In this document: positions 38,363-62,225 of the stretch, one piece after another
Layout of the letters: the number at the start of each line of letters is the position of its first letter
Position numbering within the stretch: position 1 is the stretch's first letter
Origin: Oscillibacter ruminantium GH1
GTDB taxonomy: Bacteria; Bacillota; Clostridia; Oscillospirales; Oscillospiraceae
Length of the DNA stretch: 64,000 bases
Assembly: GCF_000307265.1 (NCBI RefSeq)
Contig: NZ_DF158899.1
Span: 223,952 to 287,951 of the forward strand
Reading direction: 5' to 3'
Translations under genes and position numbers: made by a program
Notes under the pieces: model-generated
Databases searched by the model: none
Told to the model about the DNA's origin: nothing
The model's input: the letters and a program-made list of their open reading frames with translations, nothing else

Positions 38363-38547
38363 ATGAAAATCATTGTCTGGAAGAAAAAGGCGGCCGCGCT
38401 GTTGGCGGCGGTGCTGGCGGTTGGAACGGCGGGGTATGCGGCAACCTACCCTGCCGTGGCCTATACCACCGATCGTCAGCTGCCCATTTACTGCGTTGAC
38501 AAGGGTCAACAGAAAGTTTGTTCCATCAGCTTCGATGCTGCCTGGGG
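38363..38547 (+). CDS. pdaB: pdaB-like polysaccharide deacetylase, piece 1 (N-terminus)
   Basis: The ATG follows GAGGAGGG. MKIIVWKKKAAALLAAVLAV begins a signal/anchor segment, then LPIYCVDKGQQKVCSISFDA AWG, where the frame leaves the gene at the core CCTGGGG (38541-38547). SFDAAWG is catalytic motif 1 of the PdaB branch of CE4 deacetylases. Joined to 54178 the frame continues as AWGNEDTQTLIDIL. The unexcised frame instead reads into the element and stays open to 39991. PdaB acts on spore-wall glycan in Bacillus. Pieces 1-3 add up to 951 bases, 316 residues plus stop. Confidence 0.88.
38541..38547. other. Left attachment core of element 1 (attL1)
   Basis: CCTGGGG, repeated at 54171-54177. The rejoined site has TTCG and CGAA arms placed 16 bases apart around it. 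On the element side an inverted GTCAT-N4-GCGGCAG matches CTGCCGC-N3-ATGAC beside the right core. Confidence 0.75.
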
Positions 38548-38617
38548 TGATGTTCGATTGCGGTCATTGTGGCGGCAGGGTTTTTCCGCGTTAAAACACA
38601 TTTTGAAAAGGCCAGAA

Positions 38618-38657
38618 CACGCAGAGGCGGCTGTCCGCGGACAGCCGCCTCTGCGTG
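38618..38657. terminator. Perfect 40-base palindrome after the regulator gene
   Basis: CACGCAGAGGCGGCTGTCC and its exact complement meet at a GC centre. It lies 66 bases past the stop of the leftward regulator and also guards the element end from read-through; there are T-runs near both sides. Confidence 0.75.
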
Positions 38658-38722
38658 CCCAAAAGTCTTTTCTAAGCAACGAACCGTGCTTTGGTTTTTT
38701 CCGCGTTGTAGCGGTCAGTGGA

Positions 38723-41700
38723 TCAGGCATCCTGTTCAGGTTCCCCCTCCGAGGCAAACTGCCGGAGCAGAGTTTTGCGCTCATAGCGGTTGCAGTATTT
38801 GCTGAGATTTTTCAGCGCCAGCGCGTAATACTGCCCAGCGCTCTCTTTCAGATCCTGTGCAAAGACCGCGCCGATCTCCTCATCCCGGTCCGCCATCTGG
38901 CGGATGAGCGCCTCGGCAAACAAAACGGTTCCAAGCTCACTGGGGTCCTTGATCTTTCCGGCGCTGTTCTGGGCGGAACTCAGGCACCATTTTGCATTTT
39001 CATACTGTCCTTCCTGCATCAGCACAAGCGCCATATAGGCGTCCAAAACCGGGCGGCGCCAGAAGGAATCGAATTGCCCATACAGGGCGTAAGCCTGCTC
39101 AAAATACGACTTTGCTGCGGAAAAAGATTCCATAAAGTACGCGGTTTTCCCCGCGTTGATGTAAAAATAAGAAAGACTGGAGGATACGTTCTGTCCCGTA
39201 CACAGGGAGATGGCCTTTTGAAACAGCGCCAGTGCTTCGGGATAGTCCTCCTCCGCCTGACGAATCTCTCCGATGTAACAGTACGCGGCGGCAACATTGG
39301 TGGCGTAGCGCTTGGCCACCGTTTCCGTGATGGTGAGGGTACTGATGGACTCGGTCAACAGCTTTTCCGCCAGATAGTAATTTCCCACCATCAGGTTGTA
39401 CAAACCCTTCAGCCGGAGAATAATCCCGATTTCTTTATGATAGTTGCACCTCACCGCCAAATCCAGCGACAGCTTAATATATTCGGCCATTTCTTCCAGA
39501 TTGTAAACCTGCAGATGGTAGATGATCAGCTGCTTGCAGCCCTCCAGTTCATAGTCCAAATTACCGATCTGCCGGGCCTTCTCAATGACATGCGTAATGC
39601 TGTCCACGCCACCCGCGTATTCACCCTCGCGGATAAGGTAACGCCCCTTCAAATAGTAAAATTCCGTCTCCAGCAGGTTCAGCTCGTCGGAGTCGCCCGG
39701 GAAATTCAGCGCCTCTTTCAACCCCGTCTCCAAATTGCCGAACAACTCCCCGATCTGGTCCCGGGACATGTAGACGTTAGGCTCCTGCCCCATTTCCAGA
39801 TTGTTCAGGATGGGGAACATCTCGTGGTTGAAATTCAGGCAGCTTTTCAGCGTATCCATCTGATATTGCAGCGCCTTGAGCCGGTCGCCGGCGGCGGAAA
39901 AGTGATAGACCAGCTTTGCGTTGAGTCTGGTGTCCCGCTTTTTTACATTTACACGCTCTTCCAGCAGCTGACCGATCTTTCGGTGAATTAGCTTTTTCCG
40001 GGAGCTGGGCTGAGACAGATAGACGTATTCCCGCAGCTTGACGTGGGAAAACAGCACCGCGGTTTCCCCCTCCTGTTCCTTTTCCCGCAGGATGTCCCTG
40101 TCCTCCAGTGTCTCCAGCAGAGTGAGCATCCTCTCATCCTCCCGCTCCATCAGCCGCGCGAGGAACCGGAGTGGAGTGGCGTCATAGAAAAAGGATAGCA
40201 GCTCCACCAGCGTGCGCTCATCCGGCTGAAGATAGAGCAGACGGCTCCGCACCGCCTCCAGCGCGGTCGGCGTCATGGTACCCAGTTCATGCCCCTTTTG
40301 CAGCAGGCCAACGCACTCGTTGAGGAAAAATGGGTTTCCCTCCGTCTCATTGTAGACTTGCTCCAGCGTCTCGCCCTTCAGTTCCTTTTTTGGCAGTGCC
40401 TCTTCGATAAAGCAGTGGCATTGCTCAATATCCAGCCGCTCCAGTGAAACGGTGGTCAGGCGGCCGCTCCGGCGCAGTGCGGTCAACGCGTCCTCCAGCG
40501 CCCGGTTGCGCTCCCGGCCGCAGGTTGCCACCAGCATCACCCGCAGGGGGTCTGTTTCCAGCAAAAGCGCAGTCAGCAGGGCCAAACTCTCATCGTCCAT
40601 CCACTGGATGTCCTCGATGGCTAAAATAACCTGCTTTTCCGCAGAGATTTTCTCCAGTCCCTCCCGCAGAATCTGCACCATGGACGCCATGGACCACCTC
40701 TCCGGCGTTCGCACATAACCACTACCGGGCAGATTTTCGCTGAAATCCGGAAAAACGCCCGACATCAGCTCTTTCCACAGATTTGGAGGGATCAGTCTGT
40801 TTCGCTGAATCAACCGGGAAATGGTCCGCACCACCGCGCTCCAAATCCGCAGAGGCCAGTCTTTTTCCACCTGATAGCAGCTCACCTCCAGAATCAAAAA
40901 ATCCGACGCGGCTTTTTCCAGCAGCCTGCGCTTCAGGGTGGATTTTCCTATGCCCGTCTCGCCGGTGATTAAAAGAGTGGTTCCCCCGCGCTTTTGGCGA
41001 AACTCCTTCAGCGTCTTTTCCATAGCGGCCAGCTCCTGATAACGGCCATAAATTGAGGCCGTATCCCGGGCGCGTCTCTTTTCCCCTCCGAAGTCAATCT
41101 GCTCCAACGCACGCTCGTAAATTTCCTTGGTCTTTTTATCGGGGTCGATGCCAAGCTCCCGGTGCAGCAGCTTGGACAGATCGTAATAGGTTTCCACCGC
41201 CTTTCCGCTTCGCCCCGTGTCCTGATAAAGGCGCATCAGCAGGCGAAAGTTCCGCTCGTCGAACTCGTCCAGTTCAATGAGGCGGCGGATCAGATTCTCC
41301 ACGCCGTCATAGTTGCGCTCCTGAAGGCTCCTCTCAATTTTCAAGCAGCATTCCGTAGCGAACTTTTCCTGAAACCCGCTGCGCACTTTCGTGACCCAGA
41401 ATTCAAAGGCGTCCGCCTCCTTTAGGAAAAAGCCCTGCAGAAAATCGCCCTGATAGCACTCCAGATTCTCCTGCGGCGCCCGGGAAAACAGGTCCGTGTC
41501 GGATTCGATGTCCAGCGCCTCATTCATGAGCAGAACCGATTTTTGGGGAGAAATGATGATATCCTCCCCCAGCGATTTTTTTGCTTGGTAGATCGCATTT
41601 CGGATGTTTTTCCGCGCCACCGCGCCATCCTCGTCGGGCCACAGCAGTCCCCCCAGCTCATCGCGGCTGGCCATTTTGTTGACCGCCAAATAATAAAGCA

Positions 41701-41791
41701 GCGCGTTGATTTTTGCATAGGGGAAAAAAACGCTTCGTCCATCTACGGTGATCTGAGGGGCCCCAAACAGTTTGTATACAATTTTACTCAT
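38723..41791 (-). CDS. Large BTAD/AAA ATPase/TPR transcription regulator
   Basis: 1022 residues. An OmpR-type winged helix (KINALLYYLAVNKMASRDEL then LLWPDEDGAVARKNIRNAI) and a BTAD region (to about 230) open it. An ATPase domain has Walker A GETGIGKST (about 275) and Walker B VILAIEDIQWMD (about 390). The last 400 residues are TPR-like helical repeats. This is the SARP/MalT-like STAND regulator plan, usually sensing a metabolite. It lies just downstream of hutU on the same strand with its own promoter, so it probably controls the catabolic cargo. Confidence 0.85.
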   Translation of the reverse strand: MSKIVYKLFGAPQITVDGRSVFFPYAKINALLYYLAVNKMASRDELGGLLWPDEDGAVARKNIRNAIYQAKKSLGEDIIISPQKSVLLMNEALDIESDTDLFSRAPQENLECYQGDFLQGFFLKEADAFEFWVTKVRSGFQEKFATECCLKIERSLQERNYDGVENLIRRLIELDEFDERNFRLLMRLYQDTGRSGKAVETYYDLSKLLHRELGIDPDKKTKEIYERALEQIDFGGEKRRARDTASIYGRYQELAAMEKTLKEFRQKRGGTTLLITGETGIGKSTLKRRLLEKAASDFLILEVSCYQVEKDWPLRIWSAVVRTISRLIQRNRLIPPNLWKELMSGVFPDFSENLPGSGYVRTPERWSMASMVQILREGLEKISAEKQVILAIEDIQWMDDESLALLTALLLETDPLRVMLVATCGRERNRALEDALTALRRSGRLTTVSLERLDIEQCHCFIEEALPKKELKGETLEQVYNETEGNPFFLNECVGLLQKGHELGTMTPTALEAVRSRLLYLQPDERTLVELLSFFYDATPLRFLARLMEREDERMLTLLETLEDRDILREKEQEGETAVLFSHVKLREYVYLSQPSSRKKLIHRKIGQLLEERVNVKKRDTRLNAKLVYHFSAAGDRLKALQYQMDTLKSCLNFNHEMFPILNNLEMGQEPNVYMSRDQIGELFGNLETGLKEALNFPGDSDELNLLETEFYYLKGRYLIREGEYAGGVDSITHVIEKARQIGNLDYELEGCKQLIIYHLQVYNLEEMAEYIKLSLDLAVRCNYHKEIGIILRLKGLYNLMVGNYYLAEKLLTESISTLTITETVAKRYATNVAAAYCYIGEIRQAEEDYPEALALFQKAISLCTGQNVSSSLSYFYINAGKTAYFMESFSAAKSYFEQAYALYGQFDSFWRRPVLDAYMALVLMQEGQYENAKWCLSSAQNSAGKIKDPSELGTVLFAEALIRQMADRDEEIGAVFAQDLKESAGQYYALALKNLSKYCNRYERKTLLRQFASEGEPEQDA

Positions 41792-41863
41792 TCCGGTCTC
41801 CTCTCAAAGCCATGCTCTTTGAATTGGGACGGAGGTCCCGTTCCCTCCACTGGAATTTGTATT

Positions 41864-41892
41864 ATTATACAATTAATGCAGTCTTGTTTCAA
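41864..41892 (-). promoter_or_regulatory. Sigma-A promoter of the BTAD regulator
   Basis: On the minus strand TTGAAA (41892-41887), 17 bases, TATAAT (41869-41864), 73 bases before the ATG at 41791. The leader holds a small GGGAC...GTCCC hairpin next to the ribosome site. Confidence 0.75.
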
Positions 41893-41949
41893 TTCAAATT
41901 AAATTTTTGTTTAACTTGCTGTCCTTTTCATCTTCACCTGAATTAAAAG

Positions 41950-41980
41950 AAAAAGGGGCCCTGACGCAGGGCCCCTTTTT
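41950..41980 (-). terminator. Terminator of the hutU operon
   Basis: AAAAGGGGCCCTG / CAGGGCCCCTTTT around a three- to four-base loop, with T-run when read on the minus strand, 21 bases after the hutU stop. Confidence 0.9.
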
Positions 41981-42000
41981 GGTGGATTTGTTCGTGATGG

Positions 42001-44034
42001 TTACTTGCTCTCCGCGCTTTTCAGCGCCTTGTCGATCAGCTGTTCGTCGTTCTCCGCCATATAGGGCAGGGTGATATGGTCTTGCCCCTCATACATCTTG
42101 TTGTATTCGGCTGCGGTGGAGACCGCATGCTCATTCCGCGCCCAAGACCGGCGGGCAACGCCCACCATCACGTCCCAAGGCATGGACATGCGCAGGATCG
42201 CGTCCACATTCTCGCTTCCGTCCAGCACCATGCCGAAGCCGCCGTTGATAGATTTGCTAACGCCCACGCCGCCGCCGTTGTGCAGCGCGACAAGGCTCAT
42301 GCCGCGGGCCGCGTTGCCCGCGTAACACTGGGTAGCCATGTCGGCCATGATATTGGAACCGTCCTTAATGTTGGAAGTCTCGCGGAAGGGAGAGTCGGTT
42401 CCGCCGGTGTCGTGGTGGTCGCGGCCCAGCATAACAGGGCCGATCTCGCCGTTGCGAACCATCTCGTTGAACTTCAGCGCGATGTTCATGCGGCCCATAG
42501 CGTCCGAATACAGGATGCGGCACTGAGTGCCGACCACCATCTTGTTCTTCTTGGCGTCCCGCAGCCAAATGTAGTTGTCGTGATCCTGATAGCGGCGGTT
42601 GTGGGCCTGAATGTAATCCGCGGCGGCAGCATCGGTCTTGTCCAGATCGTCGGGATTGCGGCTCAGGCAGCACCAGCGGAAGGGACCGTATCCATAGTCA
42701 AACAGGAAGGGCCCCAGAATGTCCTCGACATAGGAGGGGAATACAAAGCCGTCCAGATCGTTTTCGCCGTTTTTGCACACGGCGGTAACGCCCGCATCAA
42801 ACACGGACTTCAGGAACGCGTTGCCGTAATCGAAGAAGTAGGTGCCCTTATCGTGGAATTTGCAGATCATCTCGTAGTGGCGCTTCAGGGACTTATCCAC
42901 CAACTTGGCAAACTGCTCCGGGTCCTTGTCCAGCATCTCGGTGCGCTCGGCAAAGGTCAGTCCCTGCGGGCAGTAACCGCCGTCATAGGCCATGTGGCAA
43001 GAGGTCTGGTCGCTCATCAGATCCACATGGACGTTCTTTTCATACAGATACTCCAGCAGATCCACCACGTTGCCGTTATAGGCGATGGCGCAGGGTTCCT
43101 TGGCCGCCATCTTCTTCTGGGCGATGGACAGCGCCAGCTCCAAGCTGTCGGTCTTTTCGCTGACCCAGCCCTGCGTATAGCGGGTCACGATCCGGGACTC
43201 ATCCACTTCGGCGATGATGGACACAGCGCCGGCGATCTCGGCGGCCTTGCCCTGTGCGCCGGACATGCCGCCCAAACCGGCGGAGATGAACAGGCGTCCC
43301 GCCAGATTCCCATCCTCGGAAATGCCCAGTTTCAGGCGGCCCGCGCCCAGCAGGGTGTTGAACGTGCCGTGGACAATGCCCTGCGGCCCGATGTACATCC
43401 AGCCGCCGGCGGTCATCTGCCCATAGTTGGCAACACCCAGCGCCGCCGCGCGGTTGAAGTTCTTCTGGTCGTCAAACGCACCGATCATCAAGCCGTTGGA
43501 GATAACGCACCGGGGCGCACCCTTGTGGCTGTGGAACAGGCCCAGAGGGTGGCCGCTCATGACCACCAGCGTCTGCTCATCTGTCAAGATCTCCAGATAC
43601 TTTTTAATCAGGCGGTACTGCATCCAGTTCTGGCAGACCTGCCCCGCTTCGCCATAGGTCACCAGCTCGTAGGGATACAGCGCCACGTCGAAATCGAGGT
43701 TATTCTCGATCATGACCTGAAACGCCTTACCCTCGGTGCAGTTGCCCTTGTACTGCTCAATGGGCTTGCCGTATAGCTTGCCCTGCGGGCGGAAGCGGTA
43801 GCCATAAATCCGGCCGTGCTCCTCCAGTTCCTTGGCAAACTCCTCAGCCATCTGGGCGTGGTGATCCGGGTGGATGTAACGCAGGGCGTTTTTGATCGCC
43901 AGTTTCTTGTCTGCCTCGGAGAGATGGGATTCCCGGCGGGGAGCGCGGCGGATTCCATCCGCGAAGGTAGGATACTCCGGCAGCTCGTAGTCCAGCTTCA
44001 CCGTCATTGCCTTGTCAACATCAAACATTGCCAT
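42001..44034 (-). CDS. hutU: Urocanate hydratase
   Basis: 677 residues, the long form seen in many Firmicutes (the Pseudomonas type is about 555). GNCTEGKAFQVMIENNLD, QMTAGGWMYIGPQGIVHGT (NAD-binding region), GLGGMSGAQGKAAEIAG, DQTSCHMAYDGGYCPQG, YGPFRWCCLS and HNGGGVGVSKSINGGFG are urocanase blocks. It converts urocanate to imidazolonepropionate. It is the last gene of a seven-gene leftward operon. No hutH or hutI is in the element, so urocanate must come from elsewhere or from imidazolepropionate. Confidence 0.95.
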   Translation of the reverse strand: MAMFDVDKAMTVKLDYELPEYPTFADGIRRAPRRESHLSEADKKLAIKNALRYIHPDHHAQMAEEFAKELEEHGRIYGYRFRPQGKLYGKPIEQYKGNCTEGKAFQVMIENNLDFDVALYPYELVTYGEAGQVCQNWMQYRLIKKYLEILTDEQTLVVMSGHPLGLFHSHKGAPRCVISNGLMIGAFDDQKNFNRAAALGVANYGQMTAGGWMYIGPQGIVHGTFNTLLGAGRLKLGISEDGNLAGRLFISAGLGGMSGAQGKAAEIAGAVSIIAEVDESRIVTRYTQGWVSEKTDSLELALSIAQKKMAAKEPCAIAYNGNVVDLLEYLYEKNVHVDLMSDQTSCHMAYDGGYCPQGLTFAERTEMLDKDPEQFAKLVDKSLKRHYEMICKFHDKGTYFFDYGNAFLKSVFDAGVTAVCKNGENDLDGFVFPSYVEDILGPFLFDYGYGPFRWCCLSRNPDDLDKTDAAAADYIQAHNRRYQDHDNYIWLRDAKKNKMVVGTQCRILYSDAMGRMNIALKFNEMVRNGEIGPVMLGRDHHDTGGTDSPFRETSNIKDGSNIMADMATQCYAGNAARGMSLVALHNGGGVGVSKSINGGFGMVLDGSENVDAILRMSMPWDVMVGVARRSWARNEHAVSTAAEYNKMYEGQDHITLPYMAENDEQLIDKALKSAESK

Positions 44035-44118
44035 AATTATTCCTCCTTATTTATATGAGTTCATTGTGTTTAAATATAAATTGCAGGGAGATATCCGCCT
44101 CTTCGTGCGCACCGGGCC

Positions 44119-45114
44119 TCAGCGGGAGGCAAACACCTGTTTGCACTCTTCGATCATGATGGGCAGCACCTTATAAAGATCGCCCACGATTCCATAGTTC
44201 GCCACGCTGAAAATGGGCGCTTCGTCGTCCTTATTGACGGCCACGATCACGTCAGATGTCTTCATACCCGCCAGATGCTGCAGCGCGCCGGAAATGCCGC
44301 AGGCGATGTACAGCTTCGGTCCCACTGTCTTGCCGGTCTGGCCCACCTGATGCTCATAGGGAATCCATCCCGCGTCCACCGCAGCGCGGGACGCGCCCAC
44401 TGCGGCATGCAGGGTGTCGGCCAGTTCTCGAATCAGGTCGAATCCGCTGGCGTCGCCCAGTCCGCGACCGCCGGAAACAATGATCTGCGCGTCGGTCAGG
44501 CTGATTTCCCCGCCCGCCTTGGCCAGAACCTCCTTCACCTGCGTACGCAGCTCCGAATCCTCCATATTCAGAGAAACGGAGACGACCTCCCCGGTTCTGG
44601 ACGCATCCGGTTCAGCCTTAGAGAAGGCGTTGGGCCGAATGGTGCATATGGCGGTTTTCGTAGGAGCAAAGGTCACATCGGTCATGATGTTGCCGCCGTA
44701 AGTGGGGCGGGTGGCAACCAACTGCCCTTCCACAATTTTCAGTGCCGTGCAGTCCGCGGCAAGGCCCAACTCCAAACGGCTGGACAGCCGGGCGGACAAA
44801 TCCCGACCGCAGGTGGTAGCAGCCAAAAAGAGAATCCCCGGCGTGTGCTCCCGCACAAGCTGCTCCAGCACCTTGCAGTAGCTCTCGGTCCGGTAGTCCT
44901 TCAGCCGCTGGTCGTCGCAGACAAAGACCTGGTCCGCGCCATAGGCAAAAGCCTCTCCGGCCTGCTCCTTGACCTGCGCACCCAGCAAAACAGCCGACAC
45001 CTTGCCGGACAGCTGATCCGCCAGTTCTCTTGCCGCACCCAGCATCTCATAGGAGACGCCCGCGATCTTCCCGCCCACGCACTCCATGCAGACCCATATG
45101 TTTTGATTTGACAT
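44119..45114 (-). CDS. etfA: Electron transfer flavoprotein, alpha subunit
   Basis: 331 residues. The C-terminal FAD domain shows [36 protein letters not shown] then [20 protein letters not shown] and INKD-like [12 protein letters not shown]. With EtfB it passes electrons between acyl-CoA dehydrogenases and the cell. It starts 17 bases after etfB ends. Whether the complex bifurcates cannot be told from this reading. Confidence 0.95.
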
Positions 45115-45130
45115 ATCTTGTTCTCCCTTC

Positions 45131-45916
45131 TCAGATGACCTTCTGCTCCACGAGCTTTACAACGGCGAGCTTTCCGATCTCCTCTGCATTCCCGCGAAGC
45201 AACTCGCCGCTCTGGCGCGGAGCGGGCATATAGCGCTTTTGAACGGTGGAGGGGGAATTCTTCCCGACCTTGGCTGTGTCTGCGCCGATGGCCGCGCAGT
45301 CCAGCACGGGGATTTCCATGCGGTTGGCCATTCTGGTCCGTTTCAGCGTTGCATAGCGGGGCTCGTTCAGGGATTTTTCACAGGTGAGCAGCACCGGCAG
45401 CGCGGCCTGCACCACCTCCTCGCCGGTGGGAGCGACCCGTTTGGCGGTCAGACTGTCGGCGGTGGCCTCCCGAATCTCGTTGACGTAGGAGATCTGCGAG
45501 ATGCCCAACTGCTCGGCAATGCCCGCGCCCACCTGACCCGCGTCATCGTCGATGGCTTGTTTTCCGCACAGGATGACGTCAAAGGTTCCGATGGATGAAA
45601 TCGCCTTGGCCAATGTGTAGGCAGTGGCCCACGGATCGGAATCTTCCAGTGCCGGATCGCTGACCAGATACGCCTTTTCCGCCCCCATGGACAGGCCGAT
45701 ACGCAGGGTGATCTTGCTCTCCTCGTCTCCCATCGCCAGCACAGAAACCTCTCCGCCATGTTCCTCCGCCAGCTTCAAGCCCGCTTCCAGTGCGTTCAGG
45801 TCGAAGGGGCTCACCATCGTCTCAACGCCCTGTGTAACAACCCGCCCGGTGGCGGGGTCCAACTTGGGCGCCACCGCGTTGTCCTGTACCTGCTTCATAC
45901 ATACCAGTATGTTCAT
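45131..45916 (-). CDS. etfB: Electron transfer flavoprotein, beta subunit
   Basis: 261 residues starting MNILVCMKQVQDNAVAPKLD, with AAGGAGG eight bases upstream. VSPFDLNALEAGLKL, LCGKQAIDDDAGQVG and the closing LKRTRMANRMEIPVLD match EtfB. It directly precedes etfA and follows the first acyl-CoA dehydrogenase in the operon, so the three form an acyl-CoA redox module. Confidence 0.95.
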   Translation of the reverse strand: MNILVCMKQVQDNAVAPKLDPATGRVVTQGVETMVSPFDLNALEAGLKLAEEHGGEVSVLAMGDEESKITLRIGLSMGAEKAYLVSDPALEDSDPWATAYTLAKAISSIGTFDVILCGKQAIDDDAGQVGAGIAEQLGISQISYVNEIREATADSLTAKRVAPTGEEVVQAALPVLLTCEKSLNEPRYATLKRTRMANRMEIPVLDCAAIGADTAKVGKNSPSTVQKRYMPAPRQSGELLRGNAEEIGKLAVVKLVEQKVI

Positions 45917-45992
45917 ATATTGTCCTCCTTTATGGCGGGCGCCGGAGCGCCGCAATCAAACCGGAATCAAATGCTCTGAAACGCGCCGCGCA

Positions 45993-47129
45993 TCAGTGCA
46001 GAAGCTGACCGGCAATGACAATCCGCTGCACCTGAGAGGTTCCCTCGAACAACTCGGTGATGCGCTGGTCACGGTAGATCCGCTCAATCGCGTATTCCTT
46101 CATGTAACCGTAGCCCCCGTGTACCTGCAGCGCGGTATCCACCACCTTGTGGGACGCCTCGGCGGCAAACAGCTTGGCCATGGCGGCCTGCTTGGTGAAA
46201 GGCACACCCTGCTCTTTCAGGCTGGCGGCGTAATAGGTCAGCATCCGGGCGGCTTCCACCTGCGTGGCGGCATCGGCCAGCATCCACTGGATGCCTTGGA
46301 ACTTTGCAATGGGGCGCTTGAAAACCTCGCGCTCCTTGGCGTATTTAACCGCCAGATCCAGCGCGGACTGGGCGATGCCCACGGACATGGCGGCGATGCC
46401 GATGCGGCCGCGGTCCACCACGTCCAGCGCCAAACGATAGCCGCCGTTCAACTGGCCCACCAGATTCTCCTTGGGGACGCGGCAGTTTTCAAACACGATC
46501 TCGGCCGTGCGGGCACCGCGGATACCCATCTTGTTGTCTTCGGAGGCGATGGTCATGCCGGGAGTCCCCTTTTCCACCACAAAGCAGCTCATGCCGTGGC
46601 GCACGTCCTCTTTATTGGTGATGGCAAAGCAGCACAGGAAGTCGCAGTGTGCGCCGCCGGTAATGAAGTGTTTCACGCCGTTGATGACATAGCTGTCGCC
46701 ATCTTCCACAGCTGTGGTCTTGTTGGAGGTCATATCAGACCCGCCCGCAGGCTCGGTGAGGCAGAACGCGGCGTATTTTGCGCCTTCCAGCGCGGGTCGC
46801 AGCCACTTTGCTTTCTGCTCGGCATTGCCCGCCAGATACAGCGCGTCAAAGCCCAGATAGTGTCCGGTGATGATGGAGCCGGTGGAAGCGCAGGCCGCGG
46901 AGATCTCCTCCATGGCAATCGCCTCGGAGATGGCATCATAGCCCGCGCCGCCCAGTTCCTCGGGATAGGCCAGGCCCATCAGATCCTGTTCGCCCAAAGC
47001 GACAATCGTCTCGGTGGGAAAACGGTTGTTCACGTCGATCTCTTCCGCCTTGGGGGCAAGATAGCTCTGTGCCCATTCGCGGACCGCCCGGCGCAGGGCG
47101 ATTTGGTCGTCAGTATACTTGAATTCCAT
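45993..47129 (-). CDS. Acyl-CoA dehydrogenase 1
   Basis: 378 residues. LTEPAGGSDMTSNKTTAV (FAD/substrate loop), GARTAEIVFENCRVP, QVHGGYGYMKEYAIERIYRD and the catalytic Glu in LFEGTSQVQRIVI are all intact. It oxidises acyl-CoA or reduces the enoyl-CoA with EtfAB. In this operon an aryl- or imidazolyl-propionyl-CoA is the likely substrate (inference). Confidence 0.93.
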   Translation of the reverse strand: MEFKYTDDQIALRRAVREWAQSYLAPKAEEIDVNNRFPTETIVALGEQDLMGLAYPEELGGAGYDAISEAIAMEEISAACASTGSIITGHYLGFDALYLAGNAEQKAKWLRPALEGAKYAAFCLTEPAGGSDMTSNKTTAVEDGDSYVINGVKHFITGGAHCDFLCCFAITNKEDVRHGMSCFVVEKGTPGMTIASEDNKMGIRGARTAEIVFENCRVPKENLVGQLNGGYRLALDVVDRGRIGIAAMSVGIAQSALDLAVKYAKEREVFKRPIAKFQGIQWMLADAATQVEAARMLTYYAASLKEQGVPFTKQAAMAKLFAAEASHKVVDTALQVHGGYGYMKEYAIERIYRDQRITELFEGTSQVQRIVIAGQLLH

Positions 47130-54170: not shown

Positions 54171-54177
54171 CCTGGGG
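54171..54177. other. Right attachment core of element 1 (attR1)
   Basis: Second CCTGGGG. The element-side flank carries CTGCCGC-N3-ATGAC five bases before the core, mirrored in the flank of 38541-38547. Confidence 0.75.
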
Positions 54178-54513: not shown

Positions 54514-54677
54514 AACACTCCATTGGCTTGCAGTAAATAGCGCCTGCGGCCTTTTGTAAAAGGCAGAATGCGGCAAAATCCCCGCACAGGAAATTCGTAT
54601 TTTAAGATCGCGGTAAGGGTTTGGTTTCATTTTAGCAGCAGTTAAGAAGCATATTTCTTTTAGCGTATCGGAATTGT

Positions 54678-54706
54678 TTGACATTTTCACCAAATGACAG
54701 TATAAT
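54678..54706 (+). promoter_or_regulatory. Sigma-A promoter of the HD-GYP gene
   Basis: TTGACA (54678-54683), 17 bases, TATAAT (54701-54706): full consensus. It leaves a leader of about 184 bases. Confidence 0.9.
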
Positions 54707-54814
54707 ATTCTACTGTGGAAATTTGATGAAATTTAGGGAAATCAGTCGAATCAACCGACGCTTTCCGAACTTTTAGATGAGACCCGCATGGCAGCTTCTT
54801 CAGGCTTGCCCAGA

Positions 54815-54878
54815 CAGCCAAAGCTCCTCGCCTGTGCGCCGCCGAAGCGCCGACGTTGGTTGCAAGGGGCTGTGGCTG
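54815..54878 (+). other. Structured leader of the HD-GYP mRNA
   Basis: CAGCC-AA-AGCTCC (54815-54827) can pair with GGGGCT-GT-GGCTG (54866-54878), with further hairpins inside. It ends about 18 bases before the start codon. A c-di-GMP riboswitch would fit the gene, but the known class I core is not visible. Confidence 0.35.
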
Positions 54879-54896
54879 CGCGGTAAAGGAGTCAAG

Positions 54897-55958
54897 ATGA
54901 GATTCGTAGCGGCAAATTGTCTGCGTGAGGGAATGCAGTTGGCCAAGCCCCTGTATCGGGGCATCAACACCATGCTGGCCAGCGGAATCACTCTGACTCA
55001 ACCATATATTGATGCCATTCAGCGCAGCGGGTATCCCGGCGCTTATATCGACGATGATCTGTCGCAGGACATCGAAGTTGTTGATATGATCAGCGAAGAA
55101 CTGCGTATGGAAACTATGAAGGGAATGCGCAAGATCATCACCACCGCTCAAAACGGCGGCAAAAGTCTCCGTACTCCCAATATTACTGCACAGGTGGAAC
55201 ATATTGTACACGAGCTCTCCGGAAATCGGAACGTGATGGTAAATATGCTGGATTTATCCAGCTTTGACAGCTATACCTATTCCCATTCTCTCAATGTGGC
55301 GGTGCTGTCTGTCGTCTTGGGAATTGCCATGAATTTTCCGATTGGCGATTTAGTTTCTCTTGGCACCGGCGCGCTGCTGCATGATATTGGCAAGGTGTTT
55401 ATCAAAAAGGAAATTATTCAAAAACACGGCCCGCTGACGCCGGAAGAATTTGAGCAGGTGCAAACCCATTCCCGCGTGGGATATGACTATATCCTGTCGG
55501 AATATCGGCTGCCCCCGCGAAATTGCAGACCCATACTGGAACACCACGAGCGGTTCGACGGCTCCGGATATCCCATGAAAAAACGCGGCACGGAAATTTC
55601 CCTCTATGGCCGCGTAACTGCTGTGGCAGATGTATACGACGCGCTGATCTCCGAGCGGCCTTACCGCAAAGCACTGCCGCCCAACGAGGGCGTAGAGTAT
55701 GTGATGGCCAGCGCGGGCACCTTGTTCGACCCACAGGCCGTCAGCGCTTTTACCCGCAAGATCGCTCCGTACCCTGCGGGGACCTCGGTGACGTTGAGCA
55801 ACGGCTGGACCGCGCTGGTCGTTAAGAACTATGCCTCCTACTGTCTGCGGCCCAAGATTCGGGTTTATCGGCAGGACGGTGTCGATGTGGAGCCTTTTGA
55901 AATTTCACTGAAAGACGATTTCAGCTATCTAAATGTCACGATCTGCGGCGTCGCATGA
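54897..55958 (+). CDS. HD-GYP domain c-di-GMP phosphodiesterase
   Basis: 353 residues, cytosolic. HSLNVAVLSVVLGIAM, LLHDIGKVFIKKEI, HSRVGYDYIL, HHERFDGSGYP and ADVYDALISERPYRKA give the HD metal residues and the GYP motif. The N-terminal 120 residues look like a small sensor, and the C-terminus like a PilZ/beta tail. It degrades c-di-GMP, usually favouring motility. GGAG precedes the ATG. Confidence 0.93.
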   Translation: MRFVAANCLREGMQLAKPLYRGINTMLASGITLTQPYIDAIQRSGYPGAYIDDDLSQDIEVVDMISEELRMETMKGMRKIITTAQNGGKSLRTPNITAQVEHIVHELSGNRNVMVNMLDLSSFDSYTYSHSLNVAVLSVVLGIAMNFPIGDLVSLGTGALLHDIGKVFIKKEIIQKHGPLTPEEFEQVQTHSRVGYDYILSEYRLPPRNCRPILEHHERFDGSGYPMKKRGTEISLYGRVTAVADVYDALISERPYRKALPPNEGVEYVMASAGTLFDPQAVSAFTRKIAPYPAGTSVTLSNGWTALVVKNYASYCLRPKIRVYRQDGVDVEPFEISLKDDFSYLNVTICGVA

Positions 55959-56005
55959 TTTTAACAAAAAACTGCGAGTGTCCGGCGAAGCCGATTCTCG
56001 TATGC

Positions 56006-56050
56006 AGTCTGAAGGAAAGGTCCGTTAAGAACCTTTCCTTCAGACTTTTT
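56006..56050 (+). terminator. Terminator of the HD-GYP gene
   Basis: AGTCTGAAGGAAAGGT with its complement (nine-base loop), then TTTTTC. Confidence 0.9.
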
Positions 56051-56118
56051 CATTTCCGTTTTTTCTTCCGTGGCTGCTTCAGTAAACAGAGTTGAACCAT
56101 TTGCATTTTTCTCCAGAC

Positions 56119-56147
56119 TTGTACACAATTCACAATATTTATATAAA
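56119..56147 (+). promoter_or_regulatory. Promoter of the chemoreceptor gene
   Basis: TTGTAC (56119-56124), 17 bases, TATAAA (56142-56147). The 160-base leader has small hairpins (CCTCG/CGAGG near 56231 and TCCCAAA/TTTGGGA near 56265) but no recognised riboswitch. Confidence 0.65.
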
Positions 56148-56313
56148 TTTTGGCAAAATGTTGACGAGTCACCCAAAGTACGCTATTCTTTTAAAAAGGA
56201 AAAATTATCAGCCTGCGTGGACGCTTTATTACCTCGCGATTCGAGGAAGCTCGTCTTTCCTTCCCAAAATCCGCATTTGGGAACCAACGACAGCAATAAG
56301 GAGATGTATTATA

Positions 56314-58116
56314 ATGAAAAGACTGAGAACACGGCTGATTCTGGTGATCCTTACTCTGGTGGTTGCTTCGTCTGTTCTGATCGGCACGATTGGGCTCACG
56401 CAGAGCTTTCGTGTCACAAACAACATTGTAGACATGCAGGTACAAGATACCCTAAAGGGCGCTGCCAATATGCTAGGGCTCTATTTGGAGGAACAATTCG
56501 GCCCTCTCAGCCTGAACGTTGCGGGAAATCTGGTGGACGTTGACGGAAGGCCCATTGAAGGAGAAAACGACTATATTGACCGTTTGTCTCAGTCCATGAA
56601 CGTGGTCGCCACTGTATTTGCAAAAAATGGGAACGACTACATTCGCACTCTTACAACCATCAAGGATGATAACGGAGAACGGGTCGTCGGCACCGCGCTC
56701 GATTCCTCCGGCGACGCTTATCGGACGCTCAATGCAGGCGGTACCTACTTTGGCGAGGCTACCATTCTGGGCTCCGCGTATATGACCGGGTATGTTCCGC
56801 TTTTGGACAGAACCGGGCAGGCAATTGGCGCCTGCTTCGTGGGCGTATCCATTGAGTCCGTCAATGCAATTTTGAACGAGGGCATGGCTTCCGCCATCCG
56901 TTCCGTTGTAATTCTGACTGTTTTGGTGCTGTTGGCTGCCGCCGCGGTGACGGTTGTTGTTGGCGGGAATATCTCAAAGCCCATTAAAAAAGTAGCGCTG
57001 GCTGCCGAGCAGATCGCCGCCGGGAATTTCAATGTAGAGCTTTCTGTCCGCTCCAAGGATGAGGTGGGCGAGCTTGCAAAGGCGTTCGGTCTGACCATTC
57101 AGCAGCTGGTCAACTATCAGGGCTACATCGACGAAATCTCCGACGCTCTTTACCACATCGCCAACAGCGATCTGTGCGTCGAGCTTCACATGGAGTACGC
57201 CGGTCAATTTAAAAAGCTGAAAGACAACATGGATGCGCTTTTGGAAAGTCTGAACGGTACAATCCTGCAAATCAACGAATCCGCCCAGCAGGTTCGCAGC
57301 GGCGCAGAGCAGGTGGCGGACGGCGCGCAGGCGCTTTCTCAAGGCGCGACCGAACAAGCCAGCTCCGTTGAAGAGCTGTCCGCCTCAATTGCAGACACAG
57401 CCACCCAGATTCAGAAAAACGCAAAAAATGCGCAGGCCGCGCGGGAAAAGGCCAACTCTGCCGGAGAGGAATTGAAGATCAGTACCGGAGAAATGCGGGA
57501 AATGGTCTCCGCCATGCAGAATATTATGGACAAATCCGGTGAAATCTCTAAAATTATCAAGATCATTGATGACATTGCCTTCCAGACCAATATTTTGGCG
57601 CTGAATGCCGCGGTGGAGGCGGCACGGGCAGGTGCGGCAGGCAAGGGCTTTGCCGTTGTCGCGGATGAGGTCCGCAATCTGGCCGGGAAATCCGCCGAGG
57701 CGGCCAAGAGCACCTCCGCCCTTATCGAAGAAACCATTCAGGCCGTTGGAGCCGGTTCCAAAATTGCCGACCGAACGGCTCAGTCTCTGGGTGAGGCCGC
57801 CGCAATCGCCTCGGAAGCCGTCACCTTAATTGATGAAATTGCAAAAGCCTCTCAGGGTCAGGCGGAATCCATCACTCAAATTAATCAGGGCGTGGAGCAA
57901 ATCTCGTCGGTGGTGCAGATCAACGCAGCCACCGCTGAGGAGAGCGCGGCGGCAAGTGAGGAGCTGAACGGACAATCCGTTTCCATGCAGGATCTGATTT
58001 CCGCGTTTCGACTTAGAAAGGCCGCGTCCGGTGATCGTTCTGATGTGGTCCCCGCTGCGGATAAAGCTTCCCTCGAATCGGAGAAAGCGCTTTCCTCCGC
58101 CGGTGGAAAATACTGA
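56314..58116 (+). CDS. Methyl-accepting chemotaxis protein
   Basis: 600 residues. Transmembrane segment 1 ([20 protein letters not shown]), a periplasmic-type single Cache domain of about 160 residues, segment 2 ([20 protein letters not shown]), HAMP, and a cytoplasmic coiled coil with the hairpin tip [20 protein letters not shown] followed by ARAG. It signals to CheA/CheW. The ligand is unknown; Cache domains often bind amino or carboxylic acids, which suits the symporter next door. AAGGAG precedes the ATG. Confidence 0.95.
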
Positions 58117-58140
58117 TGCGGTTCTCCCCCGCAAGGGGAT

Positions 58141-58180
58141 GGCGGCGGATACCAGTTAGGTATCCGCCGCCTCTTTTTTA
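58141..58180 (+). terminator. Terminator of the chemoreceptor gene
   Basis: GGCGGCGGATACC / GGTATCCGCCGCC, loop AGTTA, then T-run. The stretch 58181-58451 holds no gene I can support; it must carry the symporter promoter. Confidence 0.93.
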
Positions 58181-58451
58181 TAAAAAAATAGTTCAGAAAT
58201 CAGTCCGCGAAGGTGGTTTTTTCCTTATTTTTATGCAAAATATGCGCCGACTCATTTTGACACCTTCTAAAATTTCGCGAAGAATCCGTTTAGATTCTCC
58301 GCCTGCCGTTCAGAGGCCGCTTAAAGGCGGCAAAACCCCTTGCCAGACGGTGAAAAATCGCACATAACTAGAATATACATTGCCATGCGGCATAGAGAGG
58401 AGGCTCCTGATAGTTTCATAGGGGCAAATTTGTTTTGAGGGGGTAGCATTT

Positions 58452-59882
58452 ATGAGTTTGGTAGAGAAAATCATGCAAATCAACGGCGTTATCAACGGTG
58501 TTGTCTGGGGCGTTCCCATGCTGATTCTGATCGTGGGCAGCGGCATCTACCTCTCCATTCGCATGGGTTTCTTCCAATTCGCGCACTTTGGACACGCCAT
58601 GCGTAACACCATCGGCAAATGCTTCGGAAAGAACGCGCAGAAAACCGCAGGCAGCGGCAGTGTAACGCCGCTGCAGGCCGTGACCACCGCGCTGGCAGCC
58701 ACCGTGGGCACCGGCAACATCGTGGGCGTCACGGGCGCCATCGCCATGGGCGGCCCCGGCGCGGTATTCTGGATGGAAGTCTCCGCATTAGTCGGCATGC
58801 TGACCAAGTTCTCCGAGGTGACGCTCTCCATCCGTTTCCGGGAACGCAACGCCAACGGTGACTGGGTCGGCGGACCAATGTACTACATCAAAAACGGTCT
58901 GGGGCCCAAGTTTAAATGGCTGGGCATCACCTTCGCTACGCTGGGTTCTCTGGCCGCCTTCGGCATCGGCAACCTGACGCAGGTCAACTCCATCGCCACC
59001 TCGATCACCGCCTCCATCAACACGGTCATTCCCAGCAGCTCCAGCCACAACTTCACCATCTGCTTGTGCGCCGGTATCGCCATGGCATTGATCTGTGCGA
59101 TGACCTATCTGGGCGGCATCAAGCGTATCGGCTCTGTGACAGAAAAGTTAGTCCCTGTGATGGCCATCGTTTACATCGTCTCCAGCTTGGTCGTGATCTT
59201 CGCCAACATCGGCAATATCGGTCCTGTGTTTAAGTCCATTTTTGTGGGCGCGTTCAACCCCTCCGCCGTGGTCGGCGGCGCGGTTGGCATCGGCATCCAG
59301 ACCGCTATGACCCGTGGCGTTTCCCGCGGTGTCTTCTCCAACGAGGCAGGCTTGGGCTCCGCGCCTATCGCTCATGCGGCGGCAGACACCAAAGGTCCCG
59401 TGCAGCAGGGACTGTTCGGCATCTTTGAGGTCTTTGCCGATACCATCGTCATCTGCACCATGACCGCTCTGGTCATCCTCATGAGCGGCACTCCCATTGA
59501 GTACGGCGTTCCCGCCGGAGTCCAGCTGACCAACGCGGCGTTTGCCACCGTATTCGGGCCTGGGGCCTCTATCGTGGTGGCCATTGGACTGTGCATGTTC
59601 GCCGGGTCCACCATCCTCAGCTGGGGCCTGTACGGCACGCGCTGCGCCGAGTTCCTGTTTGGGCCTAAGATCATTAAGCCTTACCAGATCTTCTTCTGCA
59701 TTCTGGTCGTAATCGGCTCCGTGATGGAACTGTCTCTGGCATGGGACATCGCCGATACCCTGAACGCTTTGATGGCGATCCCCAATCTGGTCGCGGTGCT
59801 GGCACTGTCCCCCGTGGTCTTCAAGCTGCTGCGGGAGTACAAGGAATCCACTCCTTTGAAGCGGGAGCACTCCATGAAATAA
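58452..59882 (+). CDS. Alanine/glycine:cation symporter
   Basis: 476 residues, about eleven membrane helices. ALAATVGTGNIVGVTGAIAM then GGPGAVFWME is the AgcS family signature, with GGPMYYIKNGLG, RGVFSNEAGLGSAPIAHAAA and FAGSTILSWGLYG following. It imports alanine or glycine with sodium or protons. GAGGGGG precedes the ATG. Alanine is a germinant and energy source in many spore-formers, which may explain its presence here (inference). Confidence 0.95.
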   Translation: MSLVEKIMQINGVINGVVWGVPMLILIVGSGIYLSIRMGFFQFAHFGHAMRNTIGKCFGKNAQKTAGSGSVTPLQAVTTALAATVGTGNIVGVTGAIAMGGPGAVFWMEVSALVGMLTKFSEVTLSIRFRERNANGDWVGGPMYYIKNGLGPKFKWLGITFATLGSLAAFGIGNLTQVNSIATSITASINTVIPSSSSHNFTICLCAGIAMALICAMTYLGGIKRIGSVTEKLVPVMAIVYIVSSLVVIFANIGNIGPVFKSIFVGAFNPSAVVGGAVGIGIQTAMTRGVSRGVFSNEAGLGSAPIAHAAADTKGPVQQGLFGIFEVFADTIVICTMTALVILMSGTPIEYGVPAGVQLTNAAFATVFGPGASIVVAIGLCMFAGSTILSWGLYGTRCAEFLFGPKIIKPYQIFFCILVVIGSVMELSLAWDIADTLNALMAIPNLVAVLALSPVVFKLLREYKESTPLKREHSMK

Positions 59883-59903
59883 CCACTCCTCTTTCTCTCA
59901 CCA

Positions 59904-59945
59904 GCAAGCCGGTCCCCGGGCAAAAGCCCGGGGACCGGCTTGCTT
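59904..59945 (+). terminator. Terminator of the symporter gene
   Basis: A 19-bp perfect stem beginning AGCAAGCCGGTCCCCGGGC with loop AAAA, followed by a weak T-run. Confidence 0.85.
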
Positions 59946-59978
59946 TGCTCAGAAGTCCACCGGGCCGCCCGCCGCAGG

Positions 59979-60008
59979 CATAATCCCAGCTTTCCCCCGC
60001 ATAGAGTG
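59979..60008 (+). promoter_or_regulatory. Sigma-E-like promoter of the recombinase 2 operon
   Basis: GCATAAT (59979-59985), 15 bases, CATAGAGT (60001-60008). The predicted start is about 14 bases before the next ATG. It matches the arrangement at pdaB and recombinase 1. Confidence 0.45.
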
Positions 60009-60028
60009 CAGCAAGGGGGCTTGGCAAC

Positions 60029-60181
60029 ATGGGTGCACCTGCTTACCAATCGGACGCTCCCCGCCGGGAATATCAGATTCGTGATATTTTTCCGGACCGG
60101 GACTTCACAAAAGCAGACCAGCTCCGGGTCGCTGCGGAGATTTCCTCTCTGCTGACGGACTTGCGTGCTGAAAACGGGTAA
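60029..60181 (+). CDS. 50-residue protein before recombinase 2
   Basis: ATG at 60029 with AAGGGGG nine bases upstream. It starts MGAPAYQSDAPRREYQIRDI and ends in a helix (LRVAAEISSLLTDLRAENG). The codon bias is like that of real genes. It precedes the recombinase by 65 bases with a strong hairpin between. A directionality or accessory factor is possible. Confidence 0.6.
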   Translation: MGAPAYQSDAPRREYQIRDIFPDRDFTKADQLRVAAEISSLLTDLRAENG

Positions 60182-60190
60182 TAAAACTCG

Positions 60191-60231
60191 GCAGGTTGGG
60201 CGCACGGCGAAAAGCCGTGCGCCCAACCTGC
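60191..60231 (+). other. 18-bp perfect hairpin just before the recombinase ribosome site
   Basis: GCAGGTTGGGCGCACGGC pairs exactly with 60214-60231 around GAAAA. The recombinase ribosome site GGGAGG begins three to four bases later. There is no T-run, so it is more likely a translational or processing element than a terminator. Confidence 0.6.
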
Positions 60232-60246
60232 TACGGGAGGGGTACT

Positions 60247-61767
60247 ATGGTCGCAATTTACGCACGCCAATCGGTGGACAAAAAGGACAGCATCTCTATT
60301 GAAACGCAGATCGAGCTTTGCAAGCGCCAGCTCCCTGACAACACCCCCTGCGTCGTCTATCCCGACAAGGGGTACAGCGGCAGCAATATCAACCGGCCGG
60401 AATTTCAGCGGCTCCTTGCCGACGTGAAAGCCGGAAAGATCGACCGCATCCTCACCTACCGTCTGGACCGGATCAGCCGCTCCGTGCTGGATTTCGCCAA
60501 TCTGGTGGACCTTTTCACCAAGTACGGTGTCTCCTTCAACTCCACGCAGGAGACTTTTGACACCGGGACTCCCATAGGGCGGGCCATGCTCAATATTGTC
60601 ATGACCTTCGCCCAGCTGGAACGGGAAACCATTCAAATCCGCATTCGGGACAATTACTACGCCCGTGGCGAAAAGGGCATGTATCTGGGCGGTCCGGCTC
60701 CGTTTGGCTTTCGTAAAATTGAACTGCGTTCCGAACAGGGCAAGCTGAAGCTGCTGGAGCCGAACCCAGAAACGGTTGGCACGCTGGAGCAGATGTTTCA
60801 GCTGTACGGCAACGAGATGATGAGTCTTGGCGCCGTCGCCCGGCAATTCAACGAGGAAAAGATTCCGTCGCCCGGCGGCGTGGATTGGGACTCCTGCAAA
60901 ATTTCCCGGATTCTTCGAAATCCCGTGGCTGTGACAGCGGATGCCGACGTGTATCACTACTACCGGGACAAGGGTGTTAAATTCACCAATGAGGTCGCCG
61001 ACTTCACGCTGGGCAAGGGCTGTTACCTTTATGGCAAACGCGACAAGAATACGCGGAAGTTCACCGATGTGTCCAATCACACGCTTTCGCTGGCTCCCCA
61101 CGACGGCGTGATCCCCTCCTCTCTTTTTCTGCGCTGTCAGGAACGGCTGGACAACAACCGCCAGATCGACAACCGAACCCGTTCCCAGCTCACTTGGCTC
61201 ACCGGGCTTCTCAAGTGCGGCAAGTGCGGTCACGCGGTGGTCCCCAAATCCAGCAACCATGGCCGATACCGCTATCTTTACTGCACCGGCAGAACCGCAT
61301 ACAGCTGCTGCGATGCGGCGGGCAATCTGGGGAGTCTCTCCGCTGTGGAAGCCATCGTCCAAGCCCGCATATTCCTTTGGGCAAAGGCTTACAGCGCCCT
61401 TTGCAGCGGGGCCTCTGCCCCGGATCATCAGGCGCGCAATCATCTGCGCTGCGGGATGGAGGCCGTGGACGCGCGTATCGAAAAGCTCCTTGATATGGCG
61501 GCGGAGTCCGACGACATCACAGTGCGGTATCTGAACGAGAAAATTTCTGCTCTGACTCACGAGCGGCAAGAGCTGGAATCCCGGCTTGACCAGCTCTGCA
61601 ACTGCCGGCAGGATGCGGCGCCCAAGGAAATTCGGGATATCGCGGCGGAGTGGGATAAGATGACCCTCGCCCAGAAGAGCCGTCTGGCGGAGCTGCTGAT
61701 TTCCCGAATCAATGTGTTTCGGGACGGCCTGAATATCGAATGGAAATACCGGTTTGACTTTCGTTAG
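60247..61767 (+). CDS. Large serine recombinase of element 2
   Basis: 506 residues. The catalytic serine is S9 in IYARQSVDKKDS; DKGYSGSNINRPEFQRLL, LTYRLDRISRSVLDF and IQIRIRDNYYARG form the rest of the active site. A recombinase domain, a zinc ribbon (CGKCGHAVV ... YLYC) and a coiled coil (residues about 400-460) follow. It is clearly different from recombinase 1, in line with the different core. Its stop lies 23 bases before the right core. Confidence 0.93.
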   Translation: MVAIYARQSVDKKDSISIETQIELCKRQLPDNTPCVVYPDKGYSGSNINRPEFQRLLADVKAGKIDRILTYRLDRISRSVLDFANLVDLFTKYGVSFNSTQETFDTGTPIGRAMLNIVMTFAQLERETIQIRIRDNYYARGEKGMYLGGPAPFGFRKIELRSEQGKLKLLEPNPETVGTLEQMFQLYGNEMMSLGAVARQFNEEKIPSPGGVDWDSCKISRILRNPVAVTADADVYHYYRDKGVKFTNEVADFTLGKGCYLYGKRDKNTRKFTDVSNHTLSLAPHDGVIPSSLFLRCQERLDNNRQIDNRTRSQLTWLTGLLKCGKCGHAVVPKSSNHGRYRYLYCTGRTAYSCCDAAGNLGSLSAVEAIVQARIFLWAKAYSALCSGASAPDHQARNHLRCGMEAVDARIEKLLDMAAESDDITVRYLNEKISALTHERQELESRLDQLCNCRQDAAPKEIRDIAAEWDKMTLAQKSRLAELLISRINVFRDGLNIEWKYRFDFR

Positions 61768-61790
61768 CTGTTACTTCGATACATACCAGA

Positions 61791-61795
61791 GTTGA
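61791..61795. other. Right attachment core of element 2 (attR2)
   Basis: Second GTTGA, at the frame position that completes motif 4 of the deacetylase. Confidence 0.7.
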
Positions 61796-62225
61796 CAGCC
61801 TTGATTGGAAAGAAATCCCCGCATCGGAAATTACCCAACGGGTCACCTCCAAGGTGCAGCCCGGATCTATTGTTTTGTTCCACAACGCGGCCAAGCACAC
61901 GCCGGAGGCCCTGCCGGGAATTCTTGAATGCCTGATCGGGCAAGGCTATTCCATCATCCCCATTTCTCAACTAATTGTCAATGGAACCTGTAAACAGGAT
62001 TACACCATTGATCACACCGGGCGGCAGAAAGCGATTGCATCCCCGGAAAAGTCCACAGGAAACGCCGCAGGAAGCACCACGCCATCTGCCACGAAAAGCA
62101 CCGCCCCATCTGCCGCGAAAAGCACCGCCCCATCTGCCGCGAAAAGCACCGCCCCATCTGCCGCGAAAAGCACCGCCCCATCTGCTGGGGGAAATACCGC
62201 GCTGTCGACTGTGGAAATGGACTAA
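61796..62225 (+). CDS. pdaB: pdaB-like polysaccharide deacetylase, piece 3 (C-terminus)
   Basis: Read in the frame set by GTT GAC at 61791 it gives SLDWKEIPASEITQRVTSKV, then PGSIVLFHNAAKHTPEALPG (motif 5 His) and GYSIIPISQLI, the normal end of the PdaB catalytic domain. A Ser/Thr/Pro/Ala-rich tail of about 90 residues with KSTAPSAA repeats follows; Bacillus PdaB ends near ISQLI, so the tail is extra. The piece has no ribosome site at a suitable start and would not be expressed alone. Confidence 0.88.
62093..62188. repeat. Four 24-bp tandem repeats in the deacetylase tail
   Basis: Four units of GAAAAGCACCGCCCCATCTG plus four bases, near identical, encoding KSTAPSAA. A degenerate unit precedes them at 62071-62092. 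The copy number may vary between strains. Confidence 0.92.

Follow-up and report, generated by a model that had tools for sequence, protein, structure and literature searches.

A pdaB-like gene of Oscillibacter ruminantium GH1 is interrupted by two independent skin-like elements, which very probably are excised in the sporulating mother cell, an event predicted to rebuild the gene. The locus lies in a stretch of 64,000 nt, termed the window, and plain coordinates are window positions. As read from the DNA, the elements are separate, devoid of recognisable phage genes, equipped with one recombinase each and lodged in one fixed codon each. An earlier note on this DNA had proposed that three pieces join into one 951-base frame with all CE4 motifs, and had likened the arrangement to skin and SP-beta. 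The joined frame is confirmed, with junctions recurring at the same codons in relatives; the analogy is supported in anatomy and in the kind of gene targeted, in the recombinases and attachment sites and in the form of the promoters, and it reaches across dozens of species. The parts, with the insertion points of elements 1 and 2 called sites 1 and 2, are the following:

38363..38547, + strand: pdaB-like piece 1, with a signal/transmembrane segment and CE4 motif 1 (SFDAAW)
38548..54177, no strand assigned: element 1, 15,630 nt
54171..54513, + strand: pdaB-like piece 2, with CE4 motifs 2 and 3 and the start of 4; TIGR02764 positions 15-133
54514..61795, no strand assigned: element 2, 7,282 nt
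61796..62225, + strand: pdaB-like piece 3, with the rest of CE4 motif 4, motif 5 and a repetitive tail; TIGR02764 positions 150-191

Joined at 38363-38547, 54178-54513 and 61796-62225, the pieces give 951 nt in frame, encoding 316 aa followed by a stop. The CE4 motifs of the joined frame read SFDAAW, HSAHHD, RCPYGEYD, DVDSLDW and LFH, and we take their numbering to place site 1 in motif 1 and site 2 in motif 4. The joined protein belongs to the CE4 polysaccharide deacetylases (PF01522, 117.6 bits, cut-off 23.1). Against the PdaB model TIGR02764 it reaches 194.6 bits over model positions 4-191 (residues 1-234 given), the middle piece alone 117.6 bits and the last piece alone 30.7. The curated cut-off of 237.4 bits, which is reached by none of the 61 genomes of the genus sample, is missed, and the protein thus falls outside the formal PdaB family. 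Two intact PdaB-like paralogues of the same genome, each 27% identical to the joined protein, obtain 147.3 and 141.8 bits. Since the joined protein outscores them, the split gene is the best PdaB candidate of the genome, though below the family cut-off: the PdaB identity first assigned to it stands as the genome's best match and not as curated membership. A third CE4 gene of the genome is intact and 30% identical to the joined protein. Near its 3' end (62058-62200), piece 3 encodes one nearly identical KSTAPSAA repeat after another, which gives the protein a tail of variable appearance. The target is flanked upstream by an SH3/NlpC-P60 hydrolase gene (36888-37919) and downstream by a gene for a DUF4914 protein with weak PEPCK similarity (62418-63965).

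The ends of each element carry a direct repeat, CCTGGGG at 38541-38547 and 54171-54177 for site 1 and GTTGA at 54509-54513 and 61791-61795 for site 2, and crossover between the repeats restores the reading frame, as in elements of the skin kind; the pattern recurs in relatives. These cores had been described from the outset as frame-restoring, which they are; they are not plain repeats, each being the centre of two inverted half-sites with a central pair, TG at site 1 and GA at site 2. The attachment sites are:

38541..38565, + strand: attL1, core with TG at 38543-38544 and element half-site GGGTGATGTTCGATTGCGGTC; form kept at 24 of 25 left junctions
54152..54177, + strand: attR1, element half-site GCCGCATTATGACGTTACCC and core with TG at 54173-54174
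54509..54533, + strand: attL2, core with GA at 54512-54513 and element half-site
61764..61795, + strand: attR2, element half-site and core with GA at 61794-61795

At the right junction of site 1 the element-side consensus, drawn from 34 sequences, is GCCGCAnnnTnnCATCACCC preceding TGGGG; the left junction is its mirror image, TGGGGTGATGnnnnnnTGCGG, of which a slightly looser form is the one matched by those 24 of 25. A CCGC-type box stands at a fixed distance in 29 of 34 right junctions, as opposed to none of 47 intact genes. The dyad centre of site 1 is the TG of the tryptophan codon in SFDAAWG. Site 2 has the common form CTTGAAGCTGTTTGGGAC..GA..TCCnnAACAGCTTCAAG; divergent forms occur in the Oscillibacter pair and in several other cases. 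Both sites plausibly offer a stable target because they sit in CE4 motifs (1 and 4) with conserved DNA.

A scan of genome contigs with the middle piece yielded 163 relatives, of which the best 80, a sample and not a census, were classified. Among these 80, the same tryptophan codon is split in 33 (site 1), the same aspartate codon in 20 (site 2), both in 15 and neither in 42; an uninterrupted pdaB-like gene, for which a search in related genomes had been suggested, occurs in this last group. As both junctions recur at the same codons (33 and 20 of 80), the sites are split more often than chance would have it. Among the matches listed, two pieces on one contig always have a consistent order and strand (15 of 15 cases at site 1 and nine of nine at site 2, the window included); in other genomes the far piece lies on another contig or outside those matches. 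Across relatives, again among the matches listed, element 1 measures ∼2.7 to 42 kb and element 2 ∼5.5 to 37 kb. The 80 relatives are for the most part known from metagenome assemblies, and misjoined contigs might be thought to mimic such a gene. This explanation is exceedingly improbable: it is contradicted by the complete chromosome of O. valericigenes (AP012044.1, 4,410,036 bp, G085), in which both sites are split by elements of ∼5.3 and 17.2 kb, and by the cultured Flavonifractor/Pseudoflavonifractor loci L071, L073, L088, L099, L102, L110 and L116, which harbour one or both insertions.

Mapped onto a tree built from the 342-nt middle piece, the state of site 1 requires at least 19 changes and that of site 2 at least 15, and the insertions have thus been gained or lost many times. 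Well-supported branches of this tree provide nine independent pairs for site 1, and no significant dependence between the states of the two sites was detected on it. In two relatives (L065, 7659-8219 and 12284-12511; L207, 1013-1573 and 15190-15414) the middle and 3' pieces are contiguous and the 3' piece occurs a second time 4-14 kb downstream, following an end that resembles attR2; L206 with L076 is similar. An element of this type may bring its own 3' end, as an alternative to excision.

The pieces might instead be relics, left when fixed-target elements broke a dispensable deacetylase gene in lineages that were losing sporulation. The genome does hold other intact CE4 genes, and O. valericigenes, a carrier of both insertions, is reported not to sporulate: the full set of sporulation sigma factors is present, but some late sporulation genes were not found (PMC3558957). 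The earlier note had named pieces decaying beside an intact second copy as evidence against its reading; nothing of the kind is seen in the window, and one relative, L118, fits: its split copy has a 1-nt deletion at the end of the middle piece, and the assembly contains an intact copy at another place. The genomes of L112 and L072 also possess such a second copy, and mixed assemblies are possible there. Against decay, the 81 middle pieces are free of stop codons, and pairwise dN/dS, restricted to pairs with dS <1.2 and with L118 left out of the split ones, has an equally low median in split (0.18, 286 pairs) and intact genes (0.21, 346 pairs); judged by these ratios, the middle pieces show purifying selection. 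Moreover, the attachment sites are still able to rejoin in frame across distant species, and recombinases with their catalytic motif and a host-like promoter are retained. A dead gene is accordingly considered unlikely, and programmed excision remains the preferred reading.

At sigK, the published skin target, the sigK-like matches are full-length in the genome of the window; in three relatives they fall into two colinear halves (G117:C11:159099-174431; G097:C4:133835-141469; G145:C1:3055148-3195553), which suggests skin-like insertions there.

Each segment had been said to end near a different large serine recombinase, and two such proteins, R1 and R2, are borne out, each with Resolvase, Recombinase and zinc-ribbon domains in Pfam; both are element-borne, a feature of the skin kind:

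52205..53785, − strand: R1, large serine recombinase of site 1 (Pfam), with a YERLS motif
60247..61767, + strand: R2, large serine recombinase of site 2 (Pfam), with a YARQS motif; the listed open reading frame starts earlier, at TTG 60196

YERLS and YARQS presumably hold the catalytic serine. Members of the R1 family (54-66% identity) are present in 27 of 33 genomes split at site 1 and in none of 47 intact there (Fisher p = 7e-16, with kinship ignored), one intact genome having a 38% match. The family is missing in the remaining six split genomes (L065, L069, L086, L092, L107, L118), and among the 27 matches that of G117 has an internal stop and that of G096 is partial. R2 is 78% identical to the site-2 recombinase of O. 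valericigenes, and its family (E <=1e-60) is less exclusive, occurring in 16 of 20 genomes split and five of 30 intact at site 2. In a recombinase tree, a single clade (SH-aLRT 99) unites 27 of 28 R1 rows and is separate from the 14 background relatives; three R1 rows labelled as lying elsewhere fall within this clade, and L239 and L256 sit on very long branches, apparently through a wrong frame. The tree covers four of 15 site-2 relatives and is therefore informative for R1, not for R2. Close relatives of R2 are also encountered away from the pdaB-like gene (L144 10297-11835, 71%, O. valericigenes; L145 1956-3524, 68%, G034).

The deduced attP1, searched exactly in 311 loci, has a single match, in the cultured Flavonifractor sp. 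An10. It is a perfect dyad, GCCGCAATTTCACATCACCC-TG-GGGTGATGTGAAATTGCGGC, ∼4 kb downstream of the pdaB-like gene of An10, and a second R1 copy, in DNA 94.6% identical to An10's own R1 region, lies ∼6.5 kb from it:

L088 14505-14544, − strand, and L312 4085-4124 and 10683-12215: An10 attP1 and second R1 copy, away from the target codon

Joined element ends of exactly the predicted form thus occur in nature.

Directly upstream of each recombinase is a small open reading frame, a candidate directionality factor:

53793..53909, − strand: 38-aa frame, candidate directionality factor of R1, with a conserved pattern, directly upstream of R1
60029..60181, + strand: 50-aa frame, candidate directionality factor of R2; a similar frame precedes the R2 copies of O. 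valericigenes

A fixed C-terminal pattern (FTGQRTAEDVVAALVKIH in the window) is found in the small frame of 22 of 23 R1 loci, the exception being L085, as against eight of 5000 random windows and none of 13 background recombinases (a set of 14, one lacking a testable start). The pattern was written after the counted sequences had been seen; the controls with background recombinases and random windows do not depend on this order. GirX, a known directionality factor, is of comparable size, 42 aa (PMC5595907).

The regions upstream of the target gene and of the two recombinase operons contain predicted promoters of one form:

38311..38343, + strand: predicted sigma-E-like promoter of the pdaB-like gene, −10 CATATACT at 38333-38340; matrix score 15.3
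53939..53971, − strand: predicted sigma-E-like promoter of the R1 operon; score 14.8, with 0 of 200 shuffles as high
59978..60010, + strand: predicted sigma-E-like promoter of the R2 operon, −10 CATAGAGT at 60000-60007; score 16.3, with 0 of 200 shuffles as high

The motif CATANNNT is found in 61 of 75 regions upstream of the pdaB-like gene. When 59 regions are aligned on it, two adjacent −35 positions show T in 73% and A in 61%; the −10 of the resulting matrix is anchored by construction, and the −35 column, at fixed spacing, is not. The spacing of the two boxes upstream of the pdaB-like gene is, we assume, that of sigma-E promoters. The matrix gives p <=0.05 against shuffles in 17 of 23 R1 loci and seven of 11 R2-family loci, one of the latter (L144) away from the pdaB-like gene, a significant match being absent from six and four upstream regions, respectively. 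It exceeds 95% of real random windows in 18 of 23 R1 and six of 11 R2 loci, compared with one of 13 and none of 11 before background recombinases. The genome also has a spoIVA gene, and before spoIVA the matrix succeeds in 12 of 27 cases, this genome among them. From the −10 to the small frame there are 33 nt (R1) and 22 nt (R2) in the window. One sigma-E-like form is hence common to the target gene, both recombinase operons and spoIVA. Sigma-G, with GCATG-like −35 boxes, was set aside: weighed against the sigma-E consensus, the T of the −10 (CATANNNT) and the 14-nt spacer fit sigma-E better. The promoters would be read by a mother-cell sigma factor, sigma-E or sigma-K, with sigma-E most likely.

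These promoters bear on a further alternative, in which ordinary mobile islands target the gene by chance and undergo a low, unregulated excision for transfer that has no link to sporulation. That insertions come and go (at least 19 and 15 changes of state), that cargo varies between species and that An10 carries joined ends away from the target would all agree with it. Promoters of the target's own form, on the other hand, precede the recombinases of the pdaB sites and hardly ever the background recombinases, and chance islands are judged very unlikely relative to elements tied to sporulation.

The cargo domains recognised by Pfam are metabolic, sensory, regulatory and transport-related:

38723..41791, − strand: element 1, BTAD/AAA/TPR regulator (Pfam)
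42001..51146, − strand: element 1, urocanase, EtfA, EtfB, acyl-CoA dehydrogenase, CoA-transferase III, Gate-domain membrane protein and acyl-CoA dehydrogenase (Pfam)
54777..55958, + strand: element 2, HD-domain (HD-GYP-like) protein (Pfam)
56092..58116, + strand: element 2, methyl-accepting chemotaxis receptor (Pfam)
58452..59882, + strand: element 2, Na+/alanine symporter AgcS (Pfam, NCBIfam)

The metabolic cargo announced in the earlier note is thereby recovered in element 1 as urocanase, EtfAB, acyl-CoA dehydrogenases and CoA-transferase. The association of a urocanase-like enzyme with EtfAB, two acyl-CoA dehydrogenases and a CoA-transferase (42001-51146) possibly specifies a predicted reductive route for urocanate. 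The HD-domain and chemotaxis pair (54777-58116) resides in element 1 of O. valericigenes (L143 2859-6041, 77% and 71% identity); cargo has therefore moved between elements while the recombinases kept their sites. Neither element contains phage structural or lysis genes that would make it a prophage, and PHROGs assigns no named phage function to any of 10 cargo proteins, the matches being to families of unknown function only. A phage origin was considered and is unsupported: viral contigs hold no relative of R1 and a single one of R2, at 42%, and gave no match to attP1, by exact or looser patterns, and none to attP2.

The following course of events is envisaged. A mother-cell sigma factor, most likely sigma-E, would transcribe both recombinase operons, and the small frames would act as directionality factors that switch each recombinase from integration to excision. 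Crossover between attL and attR at TG and GA would then join SFDAAWG-NED and WDVD-SLDW. As the elements would be lost only in the terminal mother cell, the spore would keep both of them. Such an arrangement would work as a two-key lock, both recombinases being needed to restore one protein. In a set of 5.8 billion proteins (E <=1e-40), no near-identical, full-length product of the rebuilt gene of this species occurs among the 120 listed of 7830 relatives; of those listed, the best full-length ones are ∼81% identical and the sole near-identical one (98%, 188 aa) is the window's own. Free circles of this species were likewise absent from viral contigs, where the attP patterns had no match.

Programmed excision from sporulation genes has so far been a matter of a handful of Bacillus and Clostridium cases. 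Across dozens of gut anaerobes, most of them uncultured, the present comparison reveals fixed insertion codons, allows attachment sites to be deduced and identifies two families of recombinases together with candidate directionality factors, and this detail on sites, recombinases and small frames makes the idea directly testable. It appears reasonably likely that one spore-wall gene serves as a docking hot spot throughout the Oscillospiraceae, with metabolic islands maintained in two of its catalytic motifs by two unrelated lineages of recombinases that each possess a tiny directionality factor and a copy of the promoter used by the host in the mother cell, and that spore development in many gut anaerobes depends on two joint programmed deletions in this gene. 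The arrangement could explain a gene missed by plain annotation in many genomes, bears on the sporulation capacity of Oscillibacter and other bacteria reported not to form spores, and provides serine integrases whose target sites are known.

The targets of such elements named in PMC5595907 and PMC10747680 are sigK, spsM, spoVFB, gerE and yabG, and sigK prophages are reported for C. tetani (PMC5553647). Like the present elements, skin in sigK (B. subtilis; C. difficile, with CD1231 and CD1234) carries a serine recombinase and interrupts a coding region, that of a sporulation gene, which the pdaB-like target is predicted to be. In C. difficile the skin directionality factor, under sigma-E and SpoIIID, limits excision to the mother cell (PMC5025042). 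Unlike skin, the elements described here have another target, occur two per gene, place a small frame directly before each recombinase and carry metabolic cargo. The 28.6-kb gin element in gerE of B. cereus ATCC10987, whose excision needs the recombinase GirC and the 42-aa GirX (PMC5595907), is likewise a non-phage element; according to that account it is a single insertion with three recombinases, whereas here there is one recombinase per element and two elements per gene. SP-beta in spsM and vfbin in spoVFB are reported to be excised in sporulation, and for yin in yabG the restored gene has been sequenced (PMC10747680). These lie in other sporulation genes and are described as prophages or prophage-like, and the available text names no pdaB-like target or double insertion (PMC10747680). 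Among the open-access matches listed, titles and the beginnings of abstracts mention no pdaB-like target and no sporulation gene that harbours two elements. What is new relative to the known elements is the target, the double insertion, the metabolic cargo and the recurrence across Oscillospiraceae.
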